Source: Candidatus Mailhella merdavium
GTDB lineage: Bacteria > Desulfobacterota > Desulfovibrionia > Desulfovibrionales > Desulfovibrionaceae
DNA: 52,770 bases
NCBI GenBank assembly: GCA_019119045.1
Contig: DWXS01000011.1
Coordinates: 1-52,770 of the forward strand
Direction: 5' to 3'
How positions within the stretch are numbered: the stretch's first letter is position 1; each line of letters starts with the position of its first letter. Positions 13,276-44,475 of this stretch are shown here, piece by piece. The position numbers and the translations under genes were made by a program. The notes below the pieces were generated by a model. The model was not told the DNA's origin. It saw nothing but the letters and a program-made list of their open reading frames with translations, and did not search any database.

Positions 13276-14087
13276 ACCCATTCAAAAAGATTGCCTTTTC
13301 CCTGCTCATGGCTCTCGGGCTTCTCCTGCCCTCCGCCCCTCAGAGTCAGGCCGCCCCGGAATCCACCATCGACGCCATCGTCAAACGCGGAACGCTCCGT
13401 GTGGGATTCTCCTCTTTCGTCCCCTGGGCCATGCAGGACAAACAGGGAAAATATATAGGCTTTGAAATCGACGTAGCCCAGCGTCTTGCCGACGATCTCG
13501 GCGTCAAACTCCAGCCTGTGCCCACCAACTGGGACGGTATCATTCCTGCGCTGCTTTCCGGAAAGTTCGATATGATCATCGGCAGCATGTCCATTACGCC
13601 CAAGCGTGCCCTGTCTGTGAACTTTACCGTCCCCTATGATACGGCATACATCGACGTGACACTGAATAAGGAAAAGGCCGGCGCATTCAAGAGTCTTGAC
13701 GATCTGAACAAACCGGAAGTCATCGTAGCCGTGCGCAACGGCACCACTGCCGCCCTTGCGGCCAAAAAACTGGTGCCCAATGCCACATTCCGCCTGTTCA
13801 ACGACGAAGCCCCGGCTGTGGAAGAAGTGCTTGCCGGACGGGCCCATGCCTTTTTCTCCAGCGCGCCCCTGCCCACAATGGAAACGCTGCGTAACCCCGA
13901 CAAACTGATACAGAACTTTGAGCTGCAGGCATTCCGCTCTCCCATTGCCATTGCCGTGCGCAAGGGTGACTTTGACACGCTGAACGTTCTCGACGGCTGG
14001 ATCAGGATGGTGGAAGAGGAAGGCTGGCTTCAGGAACGTCGTGACTACTGGTTCAAATCCAACCAGTGGGAAAGTCTGCTTAAATAA
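13272..14087 (+). CDS. Amino-acid ABC transporter substrate-binding protein
   Basis: This periplasmic family-3 binding protein has 271 residues. A signal peptide (about 1-26, ending ...PQSQA) is followed by the family pattern VKRGTLRVGFSSFVPW, GKYIGFEIDVAQRLADDLG and GKFDMIIGSMSITPKRA. The ATG at 13272 is preferred because AGGAG lies 6 nt upstream and the signal peptide then starts properly. The conserved Arg that binds the amino-acid carboxylate appears to be present in the ITPKRA segment. The exact ligand cannot be read from sequence. Confidence 0.93.
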   Translation: MNPFKKIAFSLLMALGLLLPSAPQSQAAPESTIDAIVKRGTLRVGFSSFVPWAMQDKQGKYIGFEIDVAQRLADDLGVKLQPVPTNWDGIIPALLSGKFDMIIGSMSITPKRALSVNFTVPYDTAYIDVTLNKEKAGAFKSLDDLNKPEVIVAVRNGTTAALAAKKLVPNATFRLFNDEAPAVEEVLAGRAHAFFSSAPLPTMETLRNPDKLIQNFELQAFRSPIAIAVRKGDFDTLNVLDGWIRMVEEEGWLQERRDYWFKSNQWESLLK

Positions 14088-15234: not shown

Positions 15235-15579
15235 TCAATGCTTCACAGAACCCGAAAAAACATTGATGACCACCACTCCAGCAATAATGAGCGCGAGTCC
15301 TATATAGGCGGGAATATCAAGATGCTGCTTGAAATAAAAAACTCCGATCAGCGAAATAAGCACAATACCGAGCGCACACCAGATAGCATATCCGATGCCT
15401 ACGGGCATTGATTTCAGGACGTGAGAAAAAGTATAGAAAGACACAATATACCCGATAACGGCACACAAGGTAGGAAGAGGCCGGGTAAATTGCTGCGATG
15501 CGTTCAGGCTCGACGTGGCGAAGGTTTCCGCCAGGATGGCCACAAAAAGAAGCCCATATGTTGTGACTATACCGCTCAT
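15235..15579 (-). CDS. SMR-family (EmrE/Qac-type) cation exporter
   Basis: The 114-residue, four-helix inner-membrane protein belongs to the small multidrug resistance family. The essential Glu in helix 1 is present (AILAETFATSSL), as are the YAIWCALGIVLIS motif of helix 3 and the C-terminal SGSVKH typical of EmrE/QacE proteins. These proton antiporters export quaternary ammonium ions; E. coli EmrE also exports betaine and choline. The ATG at 15579 is set by GGAGG 4 nt upstream. It lies downstream of the phosphocholine phosphatase on the same strand, with hairpins between. A role in quaternary-amine handling is inference from family and context. Confidence 0.9.
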   Translation of the reverse strand: MSGIVTTYGLLFVAILAETFATSSLNASQQFTRPLPTLCAVIGYIVSFYTFSHVLKSMPVGIGYAIWCALGIVLISLIGVFYFKQHLDIPAYIGLALIIAGVVVINVFSGSVKH

Positions 15580-15677
15580 GAAACCTCCACAGCTATACCG
15601 GCACACCTCGTCCGGGCAAAGTATCGTTTTTTTCGGATGTAGCCCGTACAGACACGAGGCATCCGGGATACATGTAC

Positions 15678-15769
15678 CGCTGAAACTTTCAGCGGCGGAC
15701 TTTCTCCGTCTTCGATTCCGCACAATACAGAAGCTCCCGCCGCTTCTCAACAGATGAAACGGCGGGAGC
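15678..15769 (-). terminator. Hairpins between the phosphatase gene and SMR gene
   Basis: Reading the minus strand, a perfect 10-bp stem (GCTCCCGCCG/CGGCGGGAGC, 15733-15742 with 15760-15769) follows the phosphatase gene. A second stem (CCGCTGAA/TTCAGCGG, 15678-15696) comes next. T-runs are poor, so they may terminate partially or protect the upstream mRNA; some read-through into the SMR gene is possible. Confidence 0.55.
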
Positions 15770-15805
15770 ATAGCCTTATCGAATCGAATCGTTCCAGAAC
15801 ATGCC

Positions 15806-16897
15806 TTACATGATTGTGTCAGGATCGATGAAGATCCAGTTCTTGTTGGCAGTCACGGGCATATTCAGCTCATTCTGCTGGGCTGCGGACTTGTTCGCGT
15901 GATCGATGGTCCACTTGGCCTTGGAATCTTCCATGGGGTTGCCGGGCTTGCGGTTGATCCACAGTTTGAGTCCGCCGCGTTCCACATTCACGCTTTCCAG
16001 CATATAGGTGTCGGAACCGGTGGAGTCGCCGCCGGCTATGATCGGACGCTGCCACTGATTGATATACCCGATGGTGGAACCCTGCTTGCCTTCGAACCAA
16101 GTCATGGGATTGGTGAGGAAGGAGGTCGTGACCAGATCGAGGTTCTTTTCCGGATCGTACTTGCCTTCCCGAATCTGCATACGGGAATTGGTAAGTTCAC
16201 CCGTCTTGGGGTCCTTGAGCAGTACGGTCACGCCGATGACCTTTTCAGGATCGATGTTGTATCCGTACTTGGGATCGCTGGCTACCATACGGATGATTTC
16301 CTCATGAGCGGCGGTCATGATGTACACGTCGATCCCGTTCTCGCGCAGCTTGGCATAAAGTTCCTGCATACCGCGGAACATCTTGGGGATGGGAAGTTCG
16401 ACGGTAACGACCTTGTCGCCGTCCCATACCTGACGCTTGATGGGAGCCTTGAGGGCCAGCATTTCGTCAAGGTTCTTCTTCAGCTCGCGCAGCGTAAAAC
16501 CGGAAAAGATTTGCGAGGCCCAGGGGTAGCTGATCAGATCGTGCATCTCGCAGAGCCGCCAGTAATAGCTGGTCATGTTCTCCTTGCCGCCTTCAAAATC
16601 CGGACTGTCCTTGAAGGGGATGATCTTCATGGCCGGATCCATGGTCTCGCGGGTAAGCAGACCTTTCTGATCCATATAGGCCAGCAGAGGGTCAAGAAGA
16701 TCATAACGATACGTCGTCTGATCCATGTCGAACGTAGCATACTGCCCCTGATGAGCATTTGCCTGAATCATGGCTTCGAGCTTTGCGCGGGCTTCCTTGG
16801 GCCAGTGCTTCAGTTCCGTAGCGGAGGCAACGCCGACCAGCAGCGCGCAGCAGAAGGTGGACGCAAGCAGAGCCTGTACGAGTTTCCTGAATGTCAT
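15806..16897 (-). CDS. pchP: Secreted phosphocholine phosphatase (PchP-type HAD)
   Basis: The 363-residue protein begins with a signal peptide (about 1-26, ...VGVASA) and should act in the periplasm. It carries the HAD-phosphatase motifs in the form seen in Pseudomonas phosphorylcholine phosphatase: motif I DMDQT (nucleophile Asp57, acid Asp59; PchP has DMDNT), motif II TAA at 195-197 (PchP has SAA) and motif III GDSTGSD at 290-296 (PchP has GDTPDSD). PchP releases choline from phosphocholine. Placement divergent to a choline lyase microcompartment, with a matching promoter architecture, strongly supports that substrate. It is third in an operon after the DMT permease and a small gene. GGAG precedes the start. 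Substrate is inferred, not proven. Confidence 0.87.
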
Positions 16898-16935: not shown

Positions 16936-17199
16936 TTACCGAATATACTTGTTGATGGTGGCGATACTTTCCGCATTGGCGCGGAAGTACATGCGTACCT
17001 CTCCCTGTTCGTCCAGCTCGAAACGGGACTGCTCCAGCAGACCGTTGGACTCCGCAGTCATCAGCGAAGTGAGAACGTCGGCCTTGTTCAACGCCTTGAA
17101 GTGACCGTATTCCCCCTTGAGGGCTTCAATCACCTCTTCCGGACATGCCTCGCGCCCGTCGGTGAACAGATTGAGAATGGCGTAGTTCAGAGGCTTCAT
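16936..17199 (-). CDS. Small protein of unknown function
   Basis: The 87-residue product has no family I can name. Predicted helices followed by a short strand pair (ADVLTSLMTAESNGLLEQSRFELDE region) resemble a winged-helix fold, as in small adaptor or regulator proteins. It starts 4 nt before the DMT permease stop region ends (start 17199, permease stop 17204-17206) and has a GGAGG site inside the permease gene's end. It lies between permease and phosphatase, so it is part of that operon. Confidence 0.75.
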   Translation of the reverse strand: MKPLNYAILNLFTDGREACPEEVIEALKGEYGHFKALNKADVLTSLMTAESNGLLEQSRFELDEQGEVRMYFRANAESIATINKYIR

Positions 17200-17203
17200 A
17201 GGC

Positions 17204-18286
17204 TTAGTCCTCCTTCTTCTTCATGAAGATGGCCAGAGGGTTGGTGGCAATGGTGAAGATACCGATAACCATCAGAACGGCGGCAACCCAGGCGATCGGA
17301 GGCATATTCCAGCCGTCGATGCCGAAGACCAGACCGAGCCACACCCAGCAGAAGAAGGGGCCCCAGAAGGAGAACATGCCGTTGCAGGCCATACCCAGAG
17401 CCGCGCCGCACATGGCATTGCCCTTGTACCAGAGCATGAAGCCCCAGTAACAGGCGAAGCCGCCGATGATGAAAAACTTCATGGAATCCCAGTCCGCAAG
17501 AGCCGAACCGATGACCTCGAAGGGGCTGGCTCCGCCGATGAAACCAAGCACGGGAACCATGATGATCAGATTGGAAAGACCGTTGGTCACTTCGCGAATG
17601 GCAATACTCACCTCGGGGTCAATCATGGAGGAGGCATAACCGCCCACGCAGCCTTCCAGCCCCCAGCCCAGAGCAGCACCGAAACCGAAGAGCAGCCCGA
17701 TCATCATGTTGGGATGCTCTGCCGTATCACTGCTGGACATACCGATGAGCGCGCTGGCACCGAAACAGATGAGAATACCCAGCATCATGCGGGGAGTAAG
17801 AGCCTGCTTGAACAGGATACGGGCGAGAATCGCGCCGATGGCCGGGCACAGAGCGCTGATCGGGACTACGATGGAACCGGCCTGCTGAAGCCCGATCACA
17901 TAGGCGGTGGAGGCAAAGGGGCCGCCGATCATGGCTGCAAAGGCGAGAATAACCCCCGGTCTGGTTTTGAAGCTGCGGCCGAAATCGCCCAGCTTACCCT
18001 TCCAGGCGGCAATCAGCAAAGCCCAGACGGCACTGCAGGTATCCGTCAAAGCCGCGCCGAGAGCGCTCAGCATAAAGGCCACGGCAAAGGGCGTGAATCC
18101 GGAGTCTTCCCCGTAAAAGTTGGCCCAGATCCCTACGGACATGGCGAGCGTCATGAACGCGGTATAGTTACCGTAGGTAACCCCGGACATAATGGCGGTG
18201 ATGATGCCCCTCTTCCTGAAGTTTGCCGTAAGCCTGTTCTTCGCCTCAATGGCGGCCGGGCTCGGCATGCCGGTTGCGTGCTCCAT
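17204..18286 (-). CDS. DMT-superfamily permease
   Basis: The 360-residue protein has about ten hydrophobic helices with the internal duplication of EamA/DMT transporters (for example VVPISALCPAIGAILARILF, then GILICFGASALIG). The ATG at 18286 has GGAGGG 5 nt upstream. It is the first gene of the minus-strand operon that includes the phosphocholine phosphatase. Uptake of choline, or of a related quaternary amine released outside the membrane, is an attractive role because no other choline transporter is seen in the window. This is inference; DMT proteins carry many substrates. Confidence 0.88.
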   Translation of the reverse strand: MEHATGMPSPAAIEAKNRLTANFRKRGIITAIMSGVTYGNYTAFMTLAMSVGIWANFYGEDSGFTPFAVAFMLSALGAALTDTCSAVWALLIAAWKGKLGDFGRSFKTRPGVILAFAAMIGGPFASTAYVIGLQQAGSIVVPISALCPAIGAILARILFKQALTPRMMLGILICFGASALIGMSSSDTAEHPNMMIGLLFGFGAALGWGLEGCVGGYASSMIDPEVSIAIREVTNGLSNLIIMVPVLGFIGGASPFEVIGSALADWDSMKFFIIGGFACYWGFMLWYKGNAMCGAALGMACNGMFSFWGPFFCWVWLGLVFGIDGWNMPPIAWVAAVLMVIGIFTIATNPLAIFMKKKED

Positions 18287-18499: not shown

Positions 18500-18530
18500 A
18501 GCATAACCTTTCCCTCAAGGTAAAGGTCAA
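18500..18530 (-). promoter_or_regulatory. MerR-type promoter of the DMT-phosphatase operon
   Basis: On the minus strand TTGACC (18530-18525) and TATGCT (18505-18500) are separated by 19 nt, longer than the normal 17. The spacer plus the CC of the -35 box is a dyad, CCTTTACCTTGAGGGAAAGG. A 19-nt spacer with a dyad between the boxes is the hallmark of promoters activated by MerR-family DNA distortion. The dyad matches the one at 18813-18832 in 16 of 20 positions. Confidence 0.78.
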
Positions 18531-18808
18531 CCTGTATTTGGAAAAAAACGGATCTTCTCTTCAGCCAGGAGCAGAACCCCGTACGGAACCGTATGATTTT
18601 CTAACGGCTTTTCCTGAAAAAAAATTTGTTCCCCCCTGCTTAGCCCCCTCTTTTTTCCTTTTCGAGAAAACGGGAATGTATCCTATCTACCTTGAATGAA
18701 TACACAATCAGTATTTATGTTTCTTCTTCCCAGTTCCTTGGGAGGCTTCACTTTTTTTCTTTTTTTTCTTTCCGAATCGTCCCCTCCCCAAATTTTTTTA
18801 AATTGTTC
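18531..18808. other. Spacer between the two divergent promoters
   Basis: No gene is supported. The stretch is rich in T and poly-pyrimidine tracts (about 18640-18660 and 18745-18775), as expected for a regulatory spacer. Confidence 0.45.
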
Positions 18809-18839
18809 TTGACCTTCCCCTTTGGGGAAAGGCTAGCAT
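18809..18839 (+). promoter_or_regulatory. MerR-type promoter of the cut operon
   Basis: TTGACC (18809-18814) and TAGCAT (18834-18839) are separated by 19 nt. The dyad CCTTCCCCTTTGGGGAAAGG (18813-18832) fills the gap, closely resembling promoters bound by CueR- and BmrR-like MerR proteins. Transcription would start near 18846, so the ATG at 18838 cannot be the first codon; the leader of cutA is about 118 nt. Confidence 0.82.
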
Positions 18840-18963: not shown

Positions 18964-19569
18964 ATGAGGAATTACGCTGACGAGGCCATGGGCCTCATTG
19001 AAACCCTTGGAATGGTTCCCGCGATCTACGGCGCCGACGCCATGCTGAAAGCGGCCGACGTCCAGCTCTTTTCCTATGAAAACGTCGGTTCAACGCTGGT
19101 GACCATCATGGTCAAGGGAGATGTCGCAGCCGTGCGCGCCTCTGTGGACGCGGGCAAAGCCGCCGCAGCATCCATAGGCAAGCTGACGGCGCATAACGTT
19201 ATGCCCCGCCCCGTGCGCGGCGTCGGCGACATTGCGCTGGTGCATGGAGTCATGAACGAACCGAGCGAACCGCCCCTGCGTTCTCTGGCCATGATCGAAA
19301 CCTTCGGCATCGTCTACATGCTGGAAGCCGCCGACGCCATGATCAAGGCGGCCGACGTCGAACTCATCGGTTATGAAAACGTGGCCTCGGGATACATCTC
19401 CGTCCTGACCCAGGGCGACGTGGCCGCATGCAAGGCGGCCGTAGCCGCGGGAATCAAGGCGGTGGAAGCCATGGGCACATCCGTGTACAGCTCCTGCGTC
19501 ATCCCCACGCCCCACCGGGATCTGGTGAAAATGACGCGTCGCTACGCCATTGAAAATCTTCTTGCCTGA
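18964..19569 (+). CDS. cutA: Tandem BMC-domain shell protein (BMC-T)
   Basis: The 201-residue protein carries two BMC domains (about 8-92 and 105-190; GLIETLGMVPAIYGADAMLKAADV and AMIETFGIVYMLEAADAMIKAADV). It should form trimers that sit as pseudo-hexameric tiles in the microcompartment shell. I chose the ATG at 18964, with GGAG 5 nt upstream, over an upstream in-frame ATG at 18838 that lies inside the promoter. It is the first gene of the cut operon. The letter follows the published Desulfovibrio gene order. No pore cysteine like that of PduT is visible. Confidence 0.92.
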   Translation: MRNYADEAMGLIETLGMVPAIYGADAMLKAADVQLFSYENVGSTLVTIMVKGDVAAVRASVDAGKAAAASIGKLTAHNVMPRPVRGVGDIALVHGVMNEPSEPPLRSLAMIETFGIVYMLEAADAMIKAADVELIGYENVASGYISVLTQGDVAACKAAVAAGIKAVEAMGTSVYSSCVIPTPHRDLVKMTRRYAIENLLA

Positions 19570-19623: not shown

Positions 19624-21120
19624 ATGATTGCCGACAAAGACCTTCTTTCCATGCAATATGCCCGCATCCTCGCTGAAAACGCGAGGGAGGCGCAAAGAAA
19701 GCTGGCTGGCTTCCCGCAGGAAAAGCTCGACACCATTGTCGAGCATGTGGCCGCCGAAGTGGAACGGCACGCCCGCGAGCTTGCGGTCATGTCCTTTGAG
19801 GAAACGGATTACGGACGCTGGCAGGATAAGCTGATCAAAATAGGTTTCGTCTGTCGTGCCGTTCTTCGCGGTCTGCGCGGCATACGCTGCGTGGGGGTAC
19901 TGAAGGAGGACGAAAACGGCAACATTCTGGAAGTGGGCGTTCCCCTCGGGGTCATCGTCGCGCTCTGTCCTTCCACCAGCCCCGTCTCAACCACCATCTA
20001 TAAAGCCCTTCTGGCCATAAAGTCGGGCAACGCCATTATCTTTTCCCTGCATCCGCGTGCCGTCAACTGCATGAAACGGACGCTCGATCTGATCATCGCC
20101 GCAGCGGAGGAATGTGGCCTGCCGGAAGGGAGCATTTCCTATCTCGCCACCTCGACCAGAAGCGGTACCGTCGAACTGATGCGTCACCCCGCGACTTCGC
20201 TGGTGCTTCTCACGGGCGTTGTCGGGATGCTGGATGCGGCTCAGGCCTGCGGCAAACCTCTGATCTGCGGCGGCACGGGCAACGGCCCTGCCTTCATCGA
20301 ACGCAGTGCGGACGTGCGACAGGCCGTGCGCGATATCATCTTCAGCAAGTCCTTCGACTGCGGCATCGCGCCTTCGGCGGAACAATGCGTGGTGGTGGAT
20401 TCCCGCATTGCGGAGGAAACCCGCCGCGCCTTTCAGGAAGAAGGCGCCTACTTCATGCGCGAGCAGGAAGTACACGCTCTGGCCGAGCTGTTTTTCCATC
20501 ACGACGGACGCCGTCGCCGCGACATGATCGGCCTTGACGCCCCCACGCTGGCCAGACGGGCCGGATTTGAGGCCCCGGCGCATACGCGGGTGCTTATCGC
20601 CGAACGCAAATATGTCTCGGATACGGACGCCTATAACCGCGAACTTCTTAACCCCGTACTCCCCTGGTATGTGGAGGACGACTGGCAGCATGCCTGCGAA
20701 AAATGTATTGAGCTGCTGCTGTATGACCGCGCCGGTCATACGCTGGTGATTCATTCCCGCGACGAGGACGTCATCCGCCAGTTTGCTCTGAAAAAACCCG
20801 TCGCCAGGCTGCTTGTGAACACGCCGGCCGCACTGGGCGGCATGGGTGCGACCACGGAACTCTTTCCGGCCATGACCCTCGGCAGCGGACTGGCCGGACA
20901 GGGAATCACTTCCGACAATGTTTCTCCCCTGAACCTCGTCTATGTGCGTCGCGTCGGTTATGGCGTGCGCCCCGCGGATGAACTGGTTCATATGTTCGGC
21001 GAATGCGGGCAGGCATCCCCGGAGGCCTGCCCCCGGAACGGAACGGATATCAATCTTGATGCACTGCGCCAGGTACTGCGGGAAACCCTCCGGGTCATAT
21101 CCGCTCCCGGACGCAGCTGA
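19624..21120 (+). CDS. cutB: Aldehyde dehydrogenase homologue lacking the catalytic Cys
   Basis: The 498-residue protein belongs to the acylating acetaldehyde dehydrogenase family (EutE/PduP/CutF) and aligns along its length with CutF in this operon. At the active site, where CutF has NGTICASEQ (Cys247), this protein has [10 protein letters not shown]: Pro250 replaces the nucleophile Cys. Normal catalysis is therefore unlikely. The C-terminus ends in an amphipathic helix after a short linker ([18 protein letters not shown]), like an encapsulation peptide. It may be a structural partner, a cofactor binder or a CutF partner. The nearest cysteines in DCG and EQC do not align with the nucleophile. 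Confidence 0.9.
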
Positions 21121-21148
21121 CGACATTTTCACCAACGGAGGAAGCAGA

Positions 21149-23704
21149 GTGGATCTTCACGACTTTTCCAGCAAGATTGCAGAGGCGACCAGAAACCTGT
21201 CTCCGGCGGAGCGGGAATCGCTGAGGAAGATTTTTGAAGGCGTCTCCGCAGAGATACTTCAGGAGTCCGCACATGCGCTCTCCTCATCCGGCACGCCCGC
21301 CGCGTGCGCCCACGGGAACGGCATCCCCGACGGTCCTACGGAACGCCACAAGCTCCTGAAGGAAAACTTCCTGAAACAGGTGCCCAGCATCTCCATTCAC
21401 CGCGCCCGCGTCATCACCCAGATCGATAAGGAAAATCCCGGCCTGCCCAAAATCGAACTGCGGGCCAAGGCATTCCGCCGCTGCTGTGAAACCGCGCCGC
21501 TGGTCATTCAGGATCATGAGCTGATCGTCGGCTGCCCCTGCGGAGGCCCCCGCGTCGGCGCCTTCTCCCCCGACATCTCCTGGCGCTGGCTGCGCGACGA
21601 ACTGGACACCATCGCCCATCGTCCTCAGGACCCCTTCTATATTTCCGAAGACGACAAGAAGGTTCTGCGCGAAGAAATCTTCCCCTACTGGGAAGGCAAA
21701 TCCGTAGACGAATACTGCGAAGCTCAGTACCGTGAAGCGGGAGTCTGGGAACTTTCCGGCGAATCCTTCGTGTCCGACTGCTCCTATCACGCCCTGAACG
21801 GCGGCGGAGACTCCAACCCCGGATACGACGTTATCCTGATGAAAAAGGGTATGCTGGACATTCAGCGCGAAGCCCGCGAACATCTGGAACATCTCGACTA
21901 CGAAAATCCCGATGATCTGGACAAGATCTACTTCTACAAATCGATCATCGACACCACCGAAGGCGTGATGATCTACGCTCGCCGCATGTCCGAATACGCG
22001 GCGGAACTGGCCTCCAAAGAGAGCGACCCCAAGCGCAAGGCAGAACTTCTGAAGATTTCCGAAGTCAACGCCCGCGTTCCCGCTCACGCTCCCAGCAGCT
22101 TCTGGGAAGCCATTCAGTCCGTGTGGACTGTGGAATCCCTGCTGCCGGTGGAAGAGAACCAGACCGGTATGTCCATAGGCCGCGTGGACCAGTACATGTA
22201 TCCTTTCTACCGCGCCGATATCGACGCAGGCCGCATGACCGATTATGAAGCCTTCGATCTCGCCGGCTGTATGCTGATCAAGATGTCGGAAATGATGTGG
22301 CTTACCAGCGAAGGCGGCTCCAAGTTCTTCGCCGGCTACCAGCCCTTCGTGAACATGTGCGTGGGCGGCGTGACCCGCGAAGGGCGCGACGCGACCAACG
22401 ATCTCACCTATCTGCTCATGGACGCCGTGCGCCATGTACGCATCTATCAGCCTTCGCTGGCCACCCGCGTACACAACAAGTCGCCGGAAAAATACCTGCG
22501 TAAGATCGTGGACGTCATCCGCTCCGGCATGGGCTTCCCTGCCGTGCATTTCGACGACACCCACATCAAGATGATGCTGGCAAAGGGCGTTTCCATCGAA
22601 GATTCCCGCGATTACTGTCTTATGGGCTGCGTGGAACCGCAGAAAGCCGGGCGTCTGTATCAGTGGACCTCCACATCCTACACGCAGTGGCCCATCTGCA
22701 TCGAACTGGTTCTCAACCACGGCGTACCGCTGTGGTACGGCAAGAAGGTCTGCCCCGATCTGGGCGATCTGAAGGCCTTTGACACCTGGGAAAAGTTCGA
22801 CGCAGCCGTCAAGGAACAGATCAAGTACATCACCAAGTGGACGGCCGTAGCGACGGTTATTTCCCAGCGCGTACACCGCGAACTTGCGCCGAAGCCCCTG
22901 ATGTCCGTCATGTACGAAGGCTGCATGGAACACGGCAGAGACGTTTCCTCCGGCGGCGCGATGTACAACTTCGGCCCCGGCGTGGTCTGGAGCGGCCTTG
23001 CCACCTATACGGACTCCATGGCCGCGATCAAGAAGCTGGTGTACGACGACAAGAAATACACGCTCGAACAGCTCAATGAAGCCCTCAAGGCCGACTTCAA
23101 GGGATACGATCAGATCCGGGCAGACTGCCTGGCCGCTCCCAAGTACGGCAACGACGACGATTACGCCGACCTTATCGCGGCGGATCTCATCGCCTTCACC
23201 GAGCGCGAGCATCGCAAGTACAAGACGCTGTACTCCGTACTCAGCCACGGCACGCTGTCCATCTCCAACAACACGCCCTTCGGCCAGCTCACGGGAGCCT
23301 CCGCCAACGGCCGCCATGCCTGGCAGCCCCTGTCCGACGGCATCAGCCCCACGCAGGGCGCCGACTACAAAGGCCCCACGGCGATCATCAAGAGCGTGTC
23401 GAAGATGGCCAACGACAACATGAACATCGGGCTTGTGCATAACTTCAAGCTGATGAGCGGCCTGCTCGACACCCCCGAAGGCGAAAACGGCATCATCACC
23501 CTGATCCGTACCGCCAGCATTCTGGGCAACGGCGAAATGCAGTTCAACTACCTTGACAACGACGTTCTGCTGAAAGCGCAGGATCATCCCGAAGATTACC
23601 GCGATCTGGTGGTTCGGGTAGCCGGCTACAGCGCGTTCTTCGTCGAACTGTGCAAGGATGTGCAGGACGAAATCATCAGCAGAACGGTGCTTCGTTCCAT
23701 CTGA
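21149..23704 (+). CDS. cutC: Choline trimethylamine-lyase (glycyl radical enzyme)
   Basis: CutC cleaves choline to trimethylamine and acetaldehyde by a radical mechanism inside the microcompartment. The start is GTG 21149, with GGAGGA 6 nt upstream; the product has 851 residues. Relative to the studied Desulfovibrio alaskensis enzyme the numbering is shifted by five, and all key residues fit: Tyr213, Asp221 (binds the trimethylammonium), thiyl Cys494 and base Glu496 in MGCVEP, Thr507, Tyr511, and radical Gly826 in RVAGYSAF. This excludes diol dehydratase, isethionate lyase and pyruvate formate-lyase. The first 40 residues ([17 protein letters not shown]...) form a helix-plus-linker suited to encapsulation. 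cutD follows. Confidence 0.98.
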
Positions 23705-23825: not shown

Positions 23826-24758
23826 GTGGTTGAAAGAAAAGCGCTGATTTTCAACATACAGAAATACAATCTGTATGACGGGCCGGGCATCAGGACGCTG
23901 GTCTTCTTCAAGGGCTGTCCGCTGCGCTGTCTCTGGTGTTCCAATCCTGAAGGACAGTTACGCAGCTATCAGATACTCTTCAAGAAGGATCGCTGCGTGG
24001 ACTGCGGCGCGTGCGCGGCGGTCTGTCCTCAGGGCGTCCACGTCATGGACTCCGCCACGGGACGCCACGTCATCATGCGCGACGTCGAATGTGTGGGTTG
24101 TCGCAAGTGCGCGGACGCATGTCCTCAGGGCGCGCTCAGCATCTCCGGGGAATATCGCACGATTTCGGATATTATGAGCGTCATCGAAGAAGACGTGCCC
24201 TTCTATCAGAGTTCGGGCGGAGGCGTGACGCTGGGCGGGGGCGAGGTTCTCATGCAGCCTGAAGCGGCCGTCAATCTGCTGACTGCCTGCAAACAGCGCG
24301 GTATCAACACGGCCATTGAAACCTGCGGCTACGCGCGGCCTGAAGTGGTACGAAAGGCTGCCGAAGTGACGGATCTCTTTCTGTTCGATGTCAAGCACAT
24401 GGATTCCGACCGCCATTATCAGCTGACCGGAGTACGCAACGAACTCATTCTGGAAAATCTGCAATGGCTGTTTGAAAACCGTCGCAATGTCAAGGTACGC
24501 GTCCCTCTGCTCAAAGGAGTCAACGACGGCGGACAGGACATAGAAAGTCTGGTGCGCTTTCTGGAACCCTATAAGGATCACCGTAATTGCAAGGGTATAG
24601 ATCTGCTGCCCTACCACAAAATGGGCGTCAACAAATACGCCCAGCTGGGGCGCGAATATCCCCTCCCCGGGGATCCGGCCCTGAGTGAAGAAGATCTGGA
24701 ACGGGTCGAGCGCGTCATAAAACAATACGATTTCCCGGTAACGGTGATCAGGCACTGA
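23826..24758 (+). CDS. cutD: Choline TMA-lyase activating enzyme
   Basis: CutD is a radical S-adenosylmethionine enzyme that puts the glycyl radical on CutC. The 310-residue protein has the AdoMet cluster motif CPLRCLWC (CxxxCxxC) near residue 32. Two inserted ferredoxin-type clusters follow (CVDCGACAAVCP and CVGCRKCADACP, about 57-100), typical of activases of this class. Then come GGGEVLMQPE and the C-terminal half-barrel. The start is GTG, set by GGAG 8 nt upstream; the next gene follows in 19 bp. Reduction of its clusters needs flavodoxin or ferredoxin. Confidence 0.96.
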   Translation: MVERKALIFNIQKYNLYDGPGIRTLVFFKGCPLRCLWCSNPEGQLRSYQILFKKDRCVDCGACAAVCPQGVHVMDSATGRHVIMRDVECVGCRKCADACPQGALSISGEYRTISDIMSVIEEDVPFYQSSGGGVTLGGGEVLMQPEAAVNLLTACKQRGINTAIETCGYARPEVVRKAAEVTDLFLFDVKHMDSDRHYQLTGVRNELILENLQWLFENRRNVKVRVPLLKGVNDGGQDIESLVRFLEPYKDHRNCKGIDLLPYHKMGVNKYAQLGREYPLPGDPALSEEDLERVERVIKQYDFPVTVIRH

Positions 24759-37761: not shown

Positions 37762-40023
37762 TTATACGGCGGGCGCAATATCCACAAACTGATCGTGAAT
37801 GGCCACGCCGGGCGCACCGGTTTTCATGGCGCCCATGTCTGCGGCGCAGTCATCCACCACATTCTGGACATTGAACGCCAGTTTGCGGAACCATGCCTCA
37901 TACATGACCACGCAGTCCTTTGCCACATTTGATGTCAGTTTGGCCCGAACCGTTACTTCACCTATGGAGTTGAATACCCGGACCTTTTCCATATCGCGGA
38001 TGCCCTTGGCTTCAGCCGCTTCGGGATGAATATAGACAAAGGGCTCGGGATAGAAGTTTTCCATCCAGTCCAGATTGATGAACTGCGAATGCAGGCCGAA
38101 CTGCACATGCGGCGTGAGCAGACGGAAGGGCGCCGTAGCCTCTCTCCCCGGCACATACTCCGGCAGAGCCTTGAATCCGTTCTGCGCGCACAGATCGGAG
38201 CGGAATTCATACTTGCCCGACGGCGTCATGAACACACGTTCGTTCCAGGCGGCAGAGTTGGAAAGCTTTGCCTTGACCGGGCCGTTGCGCAGCTCTTCCC
38301 AGCTTGAAATGCCGAAATAGTCATACACGCCCTTGTTGAACTCCTTGATCATCCATTCCCTGCCGTCCACTTCCTGCGGGAAGGTACAGGACCCGGGAGC
38401 CTTCTTGTTCATGGCCCGGGACAGGGCTGCGGCGATCTCAATGTTGGAACGGGCCTCGTGCATGGGCTTCACGGCCTGCTCGTTCAGCGACAACCAGTAA
38501 TGCCAGTACGATACGTTGACCGTCCATTCTTCGAACAGGGTGGTTACGGGCAGAACGATGTCGGAATGTTGCACGGTTTCGTTGAAGAACTGATCGACCG
38601 TGACCACCATTTCCAGCTTGGCGAACGCCTTTTCCAGCTTATTGCGGTCAAAGTCCTGAGCAAAGGGGTTTTTGCACGATACCCACAGCATTTTCAGCTC
38701 GGGATCTTTTGCATCCAGAATTTCCTGAGCCGTCTTGTTGATGTTCAGGGTACGATCGCTGTAGGTCGTGTTGCCCTCTCCGGCAAAGTCGAATTCCCCT
38801 TTCGGCCCGGTGGCACCGACAAAGCCGATCGAACCTTCCGGCTGCTTCTGGATCATGGCGTGGTAGTTGAATCCCCAGGTACGCATCTGCCCGTAACGTG
38901 CGCCCCCGCCTTCCACGCCGATATTACCCGTCATTGCCACAAAGGCATCAATGGCCCTGACCATGGCTCCGCCGTTGGTATGACGCTGCATGCCGTAGCC
39001 TATCCATACCGTGGCAGGTTTTGCAGCGGCAAACTCCTCGGTAAGGGCACGGATATCCTCCGCCGGAATACCGCATATTTCCGACGCCCAGTCCACAGTC
39101 ACGTTCTGCCGCAGATAGTCGGCAAATTCCGCGTAGCCCACGGCATAATTGTTCACAAAGTCCTGATTCACCAGCCCCCTGTCCAGCAGATGACGGGCCA
39201 TGCCCAGGGCCAGCGCGCCGTCCGTGCCGGGCTTCACGCGCCAGTACATATCGGCCTTGGCCGCAGTCTGGGTGAACACGGGATCGATGACCACGATTTT
39301 TGCGCCGTTTTCTCTGGCCTGATACAGGTATTTCATGCTGTGCATGGAACACCAGGCAGGATTCCCTCCCCAGATGATGATATACTTTGCTTTGACAAAA
39401 TCTTCAGGATCGTTGCACCACATGTCGCCGAGGTCGTAATTCTGGGCGTCGATCCCCGCAGGCCAGCACGGCGTCCCCACAAAACGGGTGGTATAGCCCA
39501 GAGAGGACATCATCCCCTCCACGCCATAATTGGTGATCCCGAAGTTGCCGGAATATTTGGTCAGGCCCAGACCCAGCAGACTGCCGTCGCGTTTTTTTAT
39601 CTCGAGGATTTTGTCTGCGATGCGATCCATGGCCTCATCCCAGGAAATGCGGCGCCAGTTGCCGGAACCCCGCTTATCCTGAATCATCGGATACTTGATA
39701 CGATCCGGACTGTAGAGCCTCCGCGGATAGGTATAGCCTTTCACGCACAACGCGCCCCTGGTAAAGGTGGATTCCGGCGCGCCTTCCACAAACTGCACTA
39801 TGCCGTCCCGCACATAGGTTTTTATGCTGCAGGTATCATAGCAGTTTCGCGGGCAGGCGTTGCGGAACACCTGGTACGCGCCGGGATCAAAGGGAACAGC
39901 CTTTGCGTTCCGGGCCGTCAGCAGACCGCCGGGCAGAGCGGCCGCCGCTCCCGCCGCCAGCAGCCCCTTGAGAAAGCCGCGCCGATCCACGGCGTCGGGA
40001 CGCCTGAATTTGATCTTGTTCAT
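37762..40023 (-). CDS. dmsA: DmsA-family molybdopterin oxidoreductase
   Basis: The 753-residue protein has a twin-arginine signal (DRRGFLKGLLAAGAAAA), so it is exported folded to the periplasm. An N-terminal [4Fe-4S] site (CPRNCYDTC...GALCVKG) and bis-MGD domains (WGGNPAWCSMHSMKYL, VKPGTDGALALGM) follow. Family members reduce DMSO, TMAO or other acceptors. The molybdenum ligand and true substrate cannot be assigned from sequence alone. I chose Met at 40023 (AAGGA 7 nt upstream); the ATG at 40029 is too close to that site. Confidence 0.92.
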   Translation of the reverse strand: MNKIKFRRPDAVDRRGFLKGLLAAGAAAALPGGLLTARNAKAVPFDPGAYQVFRNACPRNCYDTCSIKTYVRDGIVQFVEGAPESTFTRGALCVKGYTYPRRLYSPDRIKYPMIQDKRGSGNWRRISWDEAMDRIADKILEIKKRDGSLLGLGLTKYSGNFGITNYGVEGMMSSLGYTTRFVGTPCWPAGIDAQNYDLGDMWCNDPEDFVKAKYIIIWGGNPAWCSMHSMKYLYQARENGAKIVVIDPVFTQTAAKADMYWRVKPGTDGALALGMARHLLDRGLVNQDFVNNYAVGYAEFADYLRQNVTVDWASEICGIPAEDIRALTEEFAAAKPATVWIGYGMQRHTNGGAMVRAIDAFVAMTGNIGVEGGGARYGQMRTWGFNYHAMIQKQPEGSIGFVGATGPKGEFDFAGEGNTTYSDRTLNINKTAQEILDAKDPELKMLWVSCKNPFAQDFDRNKLEKAFAKLEMVVTVDQFFNETVQHSDIVLPVTTLFEEWTVNVSYWHYWLSLNEQAVKPMHEARSNIEIAAALSRAMNKKAPGSCTFPQEVDGREWMIKEFNKGVYDYFGISSWEELRNGPVKAKLSNSAAWNERVFMTPSGKYEFRSDLCAQNGFKALPEYVPGREATAPFRLLTPHVQFGLHSQFINLDWMENFYPEPFVYIHPEAAEAKGIRDMEKVRVFNSIGEVTVRAKLTSNVAKDCVVMYEAWFRKLAFNVQNVVDDCAADMGAMKTGAPGVAIHDQFVDIAPAV

Positions 40024-40102
40024 CAGCATTTCCTTTGTGGTTTTGCATTCTCTCCCCGGAATGAACGCATCAGCGCGCGTCCCTGCCGGAAAGGGAACGA
40101 TC

Positions 40103-40738
40103 TCATTCCCTGTTCGGCGCCTGTTGCGTCGACAGCAGCCATGCTTCCAGACAATTCAGAGCTTCGGACAGAAGTTCCGGCATGGACTCCGCCCGTGCCC
40201 GGCTCAGAAATTCGGGAATCCAGACGGACATATGCCCGTCAAGAAGCCAGTGAAGAGCCTCTTCCGCACTTTGCCGCAGTCCGCCGTCCTCCGCCGGGGC
40301 AAGAGAACGGAGAACAAGCCATACTTCCAGTTCACAGGCGAGGTGATCTTCGGGAAGGTTGTCTTCCTCCCTTACTGCCAGCCCCAGACTCCGGATCAAT
40401 TCCCGCATGGAGACCGCGGCCTGCCCCATAAGGAGCGGCTCGGCGTCGAGATATACCGAAGCATACGGCGGAGCGGGCACGGGGCCAGGCCCCACAAAAA
40501 GCCGGTTGAAGGCATACTCGGCCTCACGAATGCTGTCCTCATCACGGGAAGGCAACGAAGAAAGGTCTCCCTCCGCGCGAAAAGAGGCCAGAGCTTCCAG
40601 CGCACAGGCCATAGCTGCGCCGTCACGGGCGGCAAACAAATCGCGCAGTAACTGCGCCGCCTTTTCCGGTGCGAAGGAAGGAAGGGAGGATACGCTTTCC
40701 GACAGGGGGGAAGAACACGACGGGGAGGTCTGAGACAT
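40103..40738 (-). CDS. TorD/DmsD-type maturation chaperone
   Basis: The 211-residue protein belongs to the TorD/DmsD family (YAFNRLFVGPGPVPAPPYASVYL near the middle), which guides folding and export of molybdenum enzymes with a twin-arginine signal. It lies directly upstream of the DmsA-type gene on the same strand, so it is its likely partner. The N-terminal 25 residues are Ser/Pro-rich. Confidence 0.9.
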   Translation of the reverse strand: MSQTSPSCSSPLSESVSSLPSFAPEKAAQLLRDLFAARDGAAMACALEALASFRAEGDLSSLPSRDEDSIREAEYAFNRLFVGPGPVPAPPYASVYLDAEPLLMGQAAVSMRELIRSLGLAVREEDNLPEDHLACELEVWLVLRSLAPAEDGGLRQSAEEALHWLLDGHMSVWIPEFLSRARAESMPELLSEALNCLEAWLLSTQQAPNRE

Positions 40739-40849: not shown

Positions 40850-42292
40850 CTATCCGTTGTCACGAGACGGCGTTTCGTCTCCATGGAAGGGATGAGCGGC
40901 AAGAAAGGCCGCAAGTTGAGCGTCCTGCCCTCGCACACCGAGCTTGCGTCTGATGTTTTTGCGGTGCGTCTGCACCGTTTCCGGCGATATCCCGAGAGCC
41001 GCCGCGATTTCCTTGGTGCTGTGCCCCGCCCGGATAAAACGGCAGACATTGAGTTCCGCAAGCGTCAGTCTGGCCATCCCCTGCTCTCCGCTGTCCGGGC
41101 TTCCTCCCGCCTGCCCCAGCATACGGCGTACCTGATCCTCTATAAGCGCGGCATGGCTGTGTCGTGCGGCTTTATCAGGGATGTTCACCAGCCGGGCCAG
41201 AGCGGGAGCCAGAAAGTTTTGCAGGGAAGAGGCAAGTTCCGCTCTGGACTGATCGCGTTCGGCCGCCACATTGTTCAGAACGGTGCGCAGCGTGATGTTC
41301 ATTTCCTCAATCTGGCGTTTTTCCTTTTCCAGTGCGGCGGTTCTGGCGCGGATGACTTCCTCCATGATTTCCCGCTGCGTCACGTGGGGCGTAATGTTGG
41401 TCAGCAGCACCAGATATTCGCCGCTGCTTGCCAGACTGATATCTCCCAGAGAGGAGATGGAAAGACGAAAGACCAGATCGCCGCCGAAGGGCGTGACTTC
41501 CACGGTCTGCCCCACGGGATAGTAACGGAAAAATTCCTCGGGAGAGCTGCTTTCCAGCCCCAGAACATCCCAGACTGCGCGCCCTGTAAGATTTTCTCCG
41601 GCATACTGGCGCAGGGAACGGTTGGCGGTGGTGACGCGGCACTGCGCGTCCATGACCAGTACGCCGTCGGACGTGGTGTTGAAGACGTTTTCAAAGCGGC
41701 ACTTTTCCAGCGTGAGGCGGCGCAGCATTTCGTCCATGTCGGAATGATGCTCATCCCGCTGGACCCCCAGACAGACATCCATCCATATTTCTTCAAAAGC
41801 GGCGCCGTACAGACGCAAAAGAACGCAGGCATCGTCAAGAACATGCTGAGAGCGGCGTCTTCCGAAGGAAAAGGCGTGTACGGCATCCTCCAGCGCATGA
41901 ATGAAGGTCTTGAAGCATCCCAGATACATGGTTCCGGTAATGCCCCTCCGCATATGACGCAGCCCGGAAGCCACAAGATCCTGCGCCCAGTTGTCGCTGT
42001 TCCCCGCAAGACGTTCAAAGGTCGGCAGATATCCCGTATCCAGATGACGCACGATGTGATCGGTCAGAGAACGGCAGGCGGCAATGCAGTCCGCACGACG
42101 GGCGGTGGTGAACACCAGATAGCCCGCAGCCTGCATATAAACCGTCCACTGCTCCAGAAAAACATCCATGACGCTGTCCATATCCCGGAAAAGGGACGCG
42201 GCCCGACGCCATGCCGTCATTTTGAGGCAGGGAAGGCCGGACATCTGTCTGGACGCGGGAGAAAGGGGTGATGACGGGACGGCTTTCGGCAT
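40850..42292 (-). CDS. PAS-LuxR-type transcriptional regulator
   Basis: The 480-residue protein has a PAS domain in its middle (about 210-330; FENVFNTTSDGVLVMDAQCRV), a helical linker and a C-terminal LuxR helix-turn-helix (LTLAELNVCRFIRAGHSTKEIAAALGISPETVQTHRKNI). GAGG 6 nt upstream sets the start at 42292. It lies directly upstream of the Dms-type operon on the same strand and probably controls it. The sensed signal is not known. Confidence 0.88.
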   Translation of the reverse strand: MPKAVPSSPLSPASRQMSGLPCLKMTAWRRAASLFRDMDSVMDVFLEQWTVYMQAAGYLVFTTARRADCIAACRSLTDHIVRHLDTGYLPTFERLAGNSDNWAQDLVASGLRHMRRGITGTMYLGCFKTFIHALEDAVHAFSFGRRRSQHVLDDACVLLRLYGAAFEEIWMDVCLGVQRDEHHSDMDEMLRRLTLEKCRFENVFNTTSDGVLVMDAQCRVTTANRSLRQYAGENLTGRAVWDVLGLESSSPEEFFRYYPVGQTVEVTPFGGDLVFRLSISSLGDISLASSGEYLVLLTNITPHVTQREIMEEVIRARTAALEKEKRQIEEMNITLRTVLNNVAAERDQSRAELASSLQNFLAPALARLVNIPDKAARHSHAALIEDQVRRMLGQAGGSPDSGEQGMARLTLAELNVCRFIRAGHSTKEIAAALGISPETVQTHRKNIRRKLGVRGQDAQLAAFLAAHPFHGDETPSRDNG

Positions 42293-42409
42293 GATATCCT
42301 CGGTACCCGGCGGAAACGTCGCCTTTTCCGGAACATCGCAGGGGAACGGGTACGAAAAGGATTTCACCGGCGCCGCCCTTTTGTCAATCCATCCCCGGAG
42401 GAATTTTCC

Positions 42410-42844
42410 GTGAAGTATGGTTTTTATCCGATATTGCTTCTCTCTCTGTGTCTGGCCTTTTCCGACATCATGACCACGGCGTCTGCTGTCGAAACGGAGT
42501 CCGTCTTTTCTGCGGAAAAAAGGGTAGAAGGTCGCTCCGTGCGTGTAGATATGGAATTCCCCCGTCACGCTGCCGTGGGTGAAACCGTGCCGCTCACCGT
42601 TGCCCTGTCTTTTGATCGGCAGATTTCGGGCGCATTTCCTTCCGTCAGCGTTACATGGAAAAAAACGCCGGACGGAGCTTCCTCGCCGGAAGTTCTGCCC
42701 GGCGCGCCGGTGACGGACGTCCGCTTTTCTGCCCCCGGCCATTATGAAATGGAGGCGGAAATCGGACTGGTGCTCAAGAACAGCTGCGGAGGCGTTCGCC
42801 TGCTTCCTCTTGCCGTCGCCTCCTTTGCCGTCGACGTCTCCTGA
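42410..42844 (+). CDS. Exported protein of unknown function
   Basis: The 144-residue product, read from GTG with GGAGGA upstream, has a signal peptide (about 1-27, ending in TASA) and a beta-rich mature domain, probably Ig-like (RVDMEFPRHAAVGETVPLTVALSF). It is divergent from the PAS-LuxR regulator and may belong to its regulon. It has no close family that I recognise. Confidence 0.8.
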   Translation: MKYGFYPILLLSLCLAFSDIMTTASAVETESVFSAEKRVEGRSVRVDMEFPRHAAVGETVPLTVALSFDRQISGAFPSVSVTWKKTPDGASSPEVLPGAPVTDVRFSAPGHYEMEAEIGLVLKNSCGGVRLLPLAVASFAVDVS

Positions 42845-43563
42845 CGCTCCATATTCCTTACGGAAAACGAGGTTGTCGCTCGTCGCCCTGCCCCTGCGGG
42901 CAACACACGGGATCACGGCCTGTTTGTTTTGAATATGCTCCTGAAGTCAGAAAAAACGGGACTGCTCCGCAACGCCGGAGCAGTCAAGGGACTTGCGACG
43001 CAGCCCCCCCAACGGACGGCCCGCAGGGCGTACAGACATGATCGGCAGAAATGCTCCGGCGGAGACGTGGAATCTGCGAACGAGAAACAGGGGGGCCGGC
43101 AGATATCTTCAAGAACAACACGGTATGAGAATGACGCTCCGTCCGCCGGAATCTTTATCCATAAGCGACATAACGAAACAGCTCTTCCGTCCGGGGCTTT
43201 CCCTGTCCCGACAACGGTCGCGTCCCAGCTTACGGAGGGGGCTTTATTTATCCGCACTCCCTGCGCTTGTCTCTGACAGGTCCGGATTACGCGCCGCAGG
43301 GGGATAGTTCCGAATATGTTCCGACGACTGATGCCGGGAACCTCCCTCTTTTCAAGCGGTAAACACAGCGAACCCGTTCACGGGAAAAAGCGTCATCCGC
43401 AGTATCGAACTGCCGAAAGCTCCCTGCAGATCCGCCGTCGAATGTTCCGAATACAGGAAGAGTTCAGCGAATCTCAAAAAACCGCTATTCCGGACCGTCT
43501 TACTGAAGTTGCACGATAATAGACCCGAACCAATCCGGACAGCCTGCATCCGCCCGGACAGAT
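42845..43563. other. Gene-free region upstream of the MerR gene's 3' end
   Basis: About 720 bp without a supported gene. A 10-bp stem (GACTGCTCCG/CGGAGCAGTC, 42960-42985) has an A-run on its left, so on the minus strand it is a terminator-like hairpin followed by T-rich sequence. It could end the MerR transcript far downstream or an unannotated small RNA. The repeat-like word at 42933-42950 lies next to it. Confidence 0.4.
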
Positions 43564-44475
43564 TCAGAGCAGGTCCTGACTCCGCCCCCGTCCATGACGG
43601 GATTCTGCTCCCGCTCCATGAGCTTCTGGATGTTTTTCCATTCCGTCACGGCTCACCTTCACCAGCAGCTCCGTAACATGATAATCACTGTTGCTCGTTG
43701 TCCAGTAATCCGTAACATAGCGCTCATAACAGGCTGTCCCGGGCGTATAGCCATGACGTCGAACCCATGAAATGAATCTGTCGTAGGTTTCCGGGATGGT
43801 TTCAATTTCGCCGACATGATAGCAGGAAGCCATCATACAGCCTCCGAAAGAGACACGCCCTCCGCCTCCGCAGGGCATAAGAACGTTCTGCATGATGCGG
43901 ATATTCTGCGGACGCCCTTCCATTCTGTCTTCCAGGCTGGAAAAGCGGATATAGACGGGACCGGTGATCGCGTTCCCGGTTTTTTCCACATAATCCATGA
44001 AATGTATATTGATGATAGCCGACTTGATATCGCCTTCAAAAGGCTGTTCCTGATACAGCAGATTTGCCTGTTCCACATATTTGACGGAAATTTCGCGCAC
44101 GCCTTCCACAATAACCTGCTCCGCTTCCCGGAGCAGAGCGTGCCAGTCCCGCACCGATTCCTCGCAGCGTTGCAGCTCTATTTTTGCATTCTGCAATTCG
44201 TGTATTTTTTTTTCAAAGGCGGACTGCATGGAGCTGTAGACATTTCCGTTCGCTCCGGCAATGAACTCCTTCATTTCATCAAGTTTGAATCCCATCTGCT
44301 TGTAGTATTTCAGCACCGGGACCATGAGCAGTTCGTCGTGCGTATATAATCTGTAATTATTATAATCATGGCGCAGAGAGGAAATGAGACCTATCTTGTC
44401 ATAAAAACGCAGGGCCTTCTTCGACACGTTGCAAAGCTGGCTCATCTCTCCGATGGAATACTGTTGCTTGCGCAT
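43564..44475 (-). CDS. MerR-family regulator with GyrI-like sensor domain
   Basis: The 303-residue protein starts with a MerR helix-turn-helix (YSIGEMSQLCNVSKKALRFYDKIGLI), followed by a dimer helix (about 75-120). A C-terminal domain of the GyrI/BmrR type follows (about 155-280), which in relatives binds hydrophobic or cationic ligands. It is not next to a clear target gene, and lies 25 kb from the two MerR-type promoters near 18.5-18.8 kb. It is thus a candidate activator for them, by inference. AAGGA lies 7 nt before the start. No MerR-type dyad of that kind is seen before this gene. Confidence 0.9.
   Translation of the reverse strand: MRKQQYSIGEMSQLCNVSKKALRFYDKIGLISSLRHDYNNYRLYTHDELLMVPVLKYYKQMGFKLDEMKEFIAGANGNVYSSMQSAFEKKIHELQNAKIELQRCEESVRDWHALLREAEQVIVEGVREISVKYVEQANLLYQEQPFEGDIKSAIINIHFMDYVEKTGNAITGPVYIRFSSLEDRMEGRPQNIRIMQNVLMPCGGGGRVSFGGCMMASCYHVGEIETIPETYDRFISWVRRHGYTPGTACYERYVTDYWTTSNSDYHVTELLVKVSRDGMEKHPEAHGAGAESRHGRGRSQDLL

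Follow-up and report, generated by a model that had tools for sequence, protein, structure and literature searches.

Probable twin MerR-type operators at divergent choline-lyase and phosphorylcholine-phosphatase operons of Candidatus Mailhella merdavium and their co-occurrence with a choline-type MerR regulator

In the genome of Candidatus Mailhella merdavium (Desulfovibrionaceae; assembly GCA_019119045.1), an operon for a choline-lyase (cut) microcompartment and an operon for a permease and a phosphorylcholine phosphatase diverge from one intergenic region, which raises the question of whether both are controlled by the same regulator. We analyzed the 52,770-nucleotide stretch of contig DWXS01000011.1 that carries the two operons (positions 1 to 52,770, here called the window). 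The initial annotation had described two outward-facing promoters, each with a TTGACC element, a 19-nt spacer and a -10 box, and this description was confirmed to the base. The minus-strand promoter (18500 to 18530, read from 18530 to 18500) consists of TTGACC, 19 nt and TATGCT and faces the permease/phosphatase operon, and the plus-strand promoter (18809 to 18839) consists of TTGACC, 19 nt and TAGCAT and faces the cut operon. Each spacer harbors a 20-bp dyad of the form CCTT...AAAGG (18507 to 18526 and 18813 to 18832, respectively). The two dyads are identical at 16 of 20 positions, as had been claimed, and both are internally imperfect, with 8 of 10 matching pairs at the minus site and 7 of 10 at the plus site. 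The accessible text of PMC7722741 lists 28 confirmed MerR-family promoters, all with 19- or 20-bp spacers, and both promoters of the window fall into this range. Furthermore, 8 bp separate the dyad center from the 3' end of the -35 box, in agreement with the 7 or 8 bp given for such operators in the available portion of PMC5045206 (8 bp for 22-bp MerR-family sites and 7 bp for CueR sites). No Rfam family was found at or above threshold between positions 14000 and 21000, and no similar DNA was found in the plasmid collection.

The plus-strand operon starts with a gene for a BMC shell protein (18964 to 19569; PF00936), followed by cutC, encoding choline trimethylamine-lyase (20942 to 23704, mechanical open reading frame [ORF] start; TIGR04394, 1674.5 bits with a cut-off of 1050), and by a radical SAM activase gene of the cutD type (23826 to 24758; PF04055 plus ferredoxin-type domains), which owes its name to its position. 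Further BMC shell proteins, aldehyde and alcohol dehydrogenases and a phosphotransacylase are also encoded here, and a CutC above the curated cut-off together with a radical SAM activase and microcompartment genes identifies the locus as a cut cluster. Since an ATG at 18838 overlaps the -10 box, the start of the first gene was placed at ATG 18964, which is probably correct and was chosen by a ribosome-binding-site-like sequence; in several close relatives, the shell-protein match starts only at query residues 39 to 50.

The divergent operon on the minus strand begins with a permease gene of the DMT type (17204 to 18286; EamA domain, PF00892, 28.5 bits with a cut-off of 28.2). Its mechanical ORF runs to 18433, and its start, again selected by a ribosome-binding-site-like sequence, is probably the ATG at 18286. 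An 87-amino-acid ORF (16936 to 17199), the gene of the phosphorylcholine phosphatase PchP (15806 to 16897) and an SMR-family transporter gene (15235 to 15771, mechanical ORF start; PF00893, 85.2 bits) follow on the same strand. PchP has no Pfam or NCBIfam match; its residues 27 to 362 align to residues 1 to 326 of PDB entry 4AS2 (E = 2.1e-117), a full-length homology that supports the phosphatase identity assigned by the initial annotation. Read by eye, its N terminus resembles a signal peptide. The gaps between these genes are short once the 87-amino-acid ORF is counted, so that the operon is likely transcribed as a single unit.

The two sites stand out in the window and in the genome. The pattern CCTTNCCCTNNNGGGAAAGG matched nine times in the window at up to three mismatches, compared with 0.66 matches expected from shuffles (maximum of 3 in 100 shuffles), a figure that flatters the sites because the pattern was composed after they and their relatives were known. 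Four of the nine matches are the twin sites on both strands, and no other match has fewer than two mismatches. A genome-wide search for the dyad with 19-nt spacing, as suggested in the initial annotation, was carried out with a 31-nt pattern that comprises the -35 and -10 boxes. At up to three mismatches, it matched just the twin sites in the 3.02-Mb assembly, and its reversed control gave no match there; as the assembly is 87.8% complete, the genome may contain further sites. With a 24-nt pattern that omits the -10 box, a third match (G000:C11, one mismatch) was obtained, which lies within a reading frame, has no -10 box and was rejected. At two mismatches the 24-nt pattern is unspecific by itself, with matches in 80 of 149 Desulfovibrionaceae genomes and often with the reversed control as well, and at three mismatches the control counts approach the real ones in several genomes; at these levels, position alone lends a match meaning.

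The gene for the proposed reader of both operators, a MerR/GyrI-like regulator, is located at 43564 to 44475 on the minus strand (PF00376 and PF06445). The initial annotation had pointed to this protein, and it appears to be the best candidate, judging by its match to the NCBIfam model NF053782 ("choline utilization transcriptional activator") and by the co-occurrence of its relatives with the site. Residues 2 to 276 align to positions 3 to 277 of the 278 in the model, and cutC lies in the same cluster, which is the genomic context of this family. The score of 412.6 bits is below the curated cut-off of 450, and we therefore refer to the protein as a close relative of NF053782 and not as a member; 10 of the 149 Desulfovibrionaceae genomes exceed the cut-off, and that of the window is not among them. 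A predicted structure (mean pLDDT, 86.4; pTM, 0.74) was compared with known structures using Foldseek. EcmrR ranked first by E-value (TM-score, 0.44), followed by DNA-bound BmrR (3q1m; E = 6.4e-13; TM-score, 0.68), and a BmrR-acetylcholine entry ranked fourth (TM-score, 0.66). The protein thus combines a MerR helix-turn-helix with a GyrI-like domain in a predicted BmrR-like fold. An alignment with 21 hand-picked relatives has 35 invariant columns, with many falling in the effector domain (e.g., most of ERYVxDYWTT), which suggests a fixed ligand. Upstream of the window merR gene, no operator copy with fewer than five mismatches was found, so that the gene is not autoregulated through this site.

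Other features of the region were noted as well. Close to the merR gene, a 688-amino-acid protein with a C-terminal LuxR-type (GerE) domain is encoded (40850 to 42916, minus strand), possibly a second regulator of the cluster. The interval between the cut operon and merR also holds genes for a molybdopterin oxidoreductase and a chaperone-like protein of the Nitrate_red_del family (37762 to 40738, minus strand). Between the two operators, a 23-bp element, TACCTTGAATGAATACACAATCA (18688 to 18710, plus strand), is almost unchanged across seven aligned intergenic regions and occurs as a single copy in the genome at up to three mismatches. It is not a MerR dyad and may be a site for a second regulator.

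To follow the sites across the family, we used the 149 Desulfovibrionaceae genomes, 23 of which have a full-length NF053782 match (at least 369 bits; the best score among the rest was 49). CutC exceeds the 1050-bit cut-off in 26 genomes and scores above 1630 in 25 of them (G003, with 1313 bits, was left out); 22 genomes have both the MerR and a CutC above 1630. Stretches of 17 to 20 kb around 24 cutC genes besides that of the window were scanned at up to four mismatches, and sites were retained if they had at most two mismatches or a correctly placed TA...T box. A site with 0 to 3 mismatches was present upstream of the first cut gene in all 22 genomes with merR and cutC (21 of 21 fetched loci plus the window), and no retained match was found at the three loci with cutC and without merR (G094, G120 and G073). 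The permease gene is divergent from the cut operon at 15 of the 21 merR-positive loci, and a second site faces it in 13 of these, the other two (L192 and L194) having only degenerate copies on the permease side. The comparison with other Desulfovibrionaceae that the initial annotation had recommended revealed conserved sites, with the divergent pair kept in other genera. Among these loci, pchP is confined to the genus of the window (4/4 other loci of the genus versus 0/20 remaining stretches); one genome of this genus (G070) has retained the MerR without a strong cutC.

MerR paralogs away from cut clusters (L201, L202 and L203) and the relative in a genome without a strong cutC (L204) had no such site in the stretches scanned. 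These four stretches also gave nothing when searched for promoters that combine a long spacer with 8 or more of 10 dyad pairs, a scan that recovers the minus site of the window and misses the plus site (7/10 pairs). All four encode full-length relatives of the choline MerR beside other genes that look like transporters, of the EamA and YitT families and, in L204, a TRAP DctM component. Separately, an extra inverted repeat of the CCTTCCCCT...GGAAGG type was seen by eye between the permease promoter and the permease start at L185 and L188.

We then analyzed whether the site and the MerR occur together in the whole class, in which 47 of 297 genomes were merR positive (at least 317 bits). Exact 24-nt sites were found in 20 of the 47 merR-positive genomes versus none of the 250 others, and at one mismatch the numbers were 40/47 versus 8/250, leaving seven merR-positive genomes without a site at up to one mismatch. 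These counts take a site anywhere in the genome, and some of the 40 lie off the cut operon (that of G068 and presumably that of G149). Of the 24 exact sites, 19 share a contig with merR at a distance of at most 30 kb. The remaining five comprise four that are twin sites beside cutC (G127 and G147), with merR on a different contig or 66 kb away, and one in G299. All 10 exact-site genomes outside the first 149 are merR positive, which is only partly a fresh test, since most of their site sequences were already known and some of these genomes may be those of loci L009, L011 and L023.

Also in other phyla, mainly Bacillota by title, the two were associated. Among 69 loci, 63 had at least 5 kb of upstream sequence and were retained. 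At up to two mismatches, 26 of them had merR and site, 12 merR only, none the site only and 25 neither (Fisher, 7.6e-9), and at up to three mismatches the corresponding numbers were 32, 6, 3 and 22 (Fisher, 1.0e-8); the Fisher values ignore relatedness, and related genomes are not independent trials. The reversed pattern gave no match in the 619 kb of these loci. Two loci (L038 and L061) have no cutC within the stretch analyzed, records titled Clostridium include both states, and seven loci (L057, L063, L072, L074, L080, L084 and L085) carry an additional site directly upstream of merR. A cognate-type MerR is thus encoded in the genome of the window and co-occurs with the site elsewhere. The 6 of 38 merR-positive Bacillota loci without a site at up to three mismatches, and the three merR-negative ones with a site at three mismatches, count against regulation of the site by this MerR.

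These distributions bear on the possibility that the sites belong to a different MerR-family regulator, e.g., a metal or multidrug sensor. In the genome of the window, a MerR domain was matched four times, three times over the cut-off, which gives three candidates besides the MerR in the window (two over the cut-off), and the CCTT...AAGG arms resemble CueR- and BmrR-type operators. However, exact sites occur only in genomes with an NF053782-type MerR, the one MerR type compared, the site is near such a gene in most fetched loci, and no metal gene was seen among the targets, which makes another regulator improbable.

Outside the cut clusters, 11 sites were fetched and inspected from the many matches with one or two mismatches in the 149 genomes. 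Four of them sit before PhoA-family alkaline phosphatases in another genus. An orthologue of this phosphatase (74 to 100% identical) is present in 6 of 10 genomes of that genus, and in all six a site lies within ~260 bp upstream (L210, L211, L213, L218 and L251 to L256; one mismatch in three, two in two and three in one). Four of these sites have a spacing of 20, and two have a spacing of 19 together with a poorer box, CACACT. Signal-peptide-like N termini were seen in all four orthologues that were covered as far as the start. The MerR is present in all six of these genomes and in three of the four without an orthologue (G079, G021 and G149). No site at up to three mismatches was found for eight less similar alkaline phosphatases (40 to 45%), which come from eight genomes; for one of them (L259), the upstream stretch scanned was short. 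Another of the 11 sites (L215:4253, in G019) immediately precedes the gene of a second CutC (1265 bits; the profile match contains one stop), and one (G021:C8, two mismatches) precedes an RnfC-like gene. Matches in G091, G040 and G068, which span reading frames, and those at G096:C13 and G048:C1, which have no correctly spaced TA...T box, were set aside.

The positions of merR and of the phosphatases speak to a further alternative, in which the sites are real and conserved and the operons share no common signal, the permease side serving chiefly MerR autoregulation and the phosphatase being under its own control. At 15 of the 17 merR-positive cut loci outside the genus of the window, merR follows the permease gene on the same strand at a distance of less than 1 kb, so that at these loci the minus site could serve mainly for autoregulation, and the left operon is only presumed to be one transcript. 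In the genus of the window, however, merR is placed elsewhere and not behind the permease, yet the minus site is intact in the window and at all four other loci, each with pchP behind the permease, and another genus likewise has a phosphatase among the targets. We give this alternative little credence. Finally, a chance resemblance between two promoters, which the imperfect dyads might suggest and which the initial annotation had already held to be implausible, can practically be discounted in view of the shuffles, the genome-wide count, the conservation and the co-occurrence with MerR.

The geometry of the promoters was compared across 50 compiled sites, which were picked by likeness to those of the window, with duplicates and degenerate copies excluded, and whose base frequencies are therefore partly circular. 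In 45 of them, the spacing to the best -10 box is 19 or 20 nt, namely at 25 of 26 cut promoters (17 at 20 and 8 at 19), 13 of 17 permease promoters, 6 of 6 phosphatase promoters and the one promoter of a second CutC. The 19-nt spacing emphasized in the initial annotation holds for both promoters of the window and is not universal, as 20 nt is found at 17 of the 26 compiled cut promoters. A 20-nt spacing, too, agrees with the 19/20-bp rule for MerR promoters, as formulated in the accessible text of PMC7722741.

Hence, we consider it very probable that the twin sites are MerR operators in overlong promoters, read by the NF053782-type MerR encoded at 43564 to 44475, which would induce both operons together. 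Joint control of this kind had been proposed in the initial annotation, and the conservation of the sites and their co-occurrence with the MerR strongly support it. The two promoters, with their 19-bp spacers, would stay inactive as long as the protein carries no ligand. Upon ligand binding, by analogy to BmrR as described in the accessible text of PMC7722741, the dimer would untwist the spacer and kink it, which would align the -35 and -10 boxes such that RNA polymerase could engage. The ligand is most likely choline, the most economical choice given that the targets cleave, may carry or may release choline. The cut microcompartment operon and the operon for permease, phosphorylcholine phosphatase and SMR transporter would then be induced together; in relatives, the regulon would extend to merR, encoded behind the permease, and, in one genus, to an alkaline phosphatase that looks exported.

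Beyond this locus, we lean slightly toward the view that a choline-sensing MerR regulon is common to sulfate reducers and Bacillota and that its operator was separately placed before unrelated exported phosphatases, of the PchP type in the genus of the window and of the PhoA type in another, so that choline would induce choline-stripping enzymes in a feed-forward manner. If true, this loop would link lipid-headgroup scavenging to trimethylamine production, and phosphocholine is predicted to feed the pathway through the co-regulated phosphatases.

CutC makes trimethylamine, the precursor of TMAO. In the literature searched, no description of a switch that turns on cutC was seen. The full-text search, judged from titles and abstract openings, yielded no MerR operator at cut genes, and neither the operator nor its twin arrangement, spread and phosphatase targets were found. 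The initial annotation had regarded such a shared operator as apparently undescribed, which stands for the operator within the literature searched and does not extend to the regulator, as this is already named a choline-utilization activator in NCBIfam. Therefore, only the operator and the regulon would be new; the kind of promoter is also already known. A defined operator makes the question of cutC control directly testable and gives genome and metagenome surveys a sequence marker by which inducible cut clusters can be recognized. It could also become a part for a choline biosensor.

Several known systems share features with the one described here. Metal promoters of the CueR/HmrR type likewise have 19- or 20-bp spacers, and their CCTT...AAGG arms touch the -35 box, as is the case here. 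Unlike in these systems, a GyrI-like domain is part of the regulator, and the targets seen include no metal genes; also, the dyad center is 8 bp from the -35 box versus 7 bp at CueR sites (PMC5045206, accessible text). The cut cluster of Desulfovibrio alaskensis G20 has matching pathway genes in a microcompartment cluster, and the available part of its description (PMC4215793) mentions no MerR, operator or phosphatase. With NF053782, the regulator shares a match over nearly the whole model and a cutC gene in the same cluster, and it differs by its score below 450. Similar in kind is BmrR at the Bacillus subtilis bmr promoter, with a MerR domain joined to a GyrI-like domain, a matching fold and an operator within a 19-bp spacer (PMC7722741, accessible text). 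In contrast to bmr, whose target is a multidrug pump, the targets here are a choline lyase, a permease and phosphatases, two divergent operators are present, and the conserved effector domain probably recognizes a single ligand.
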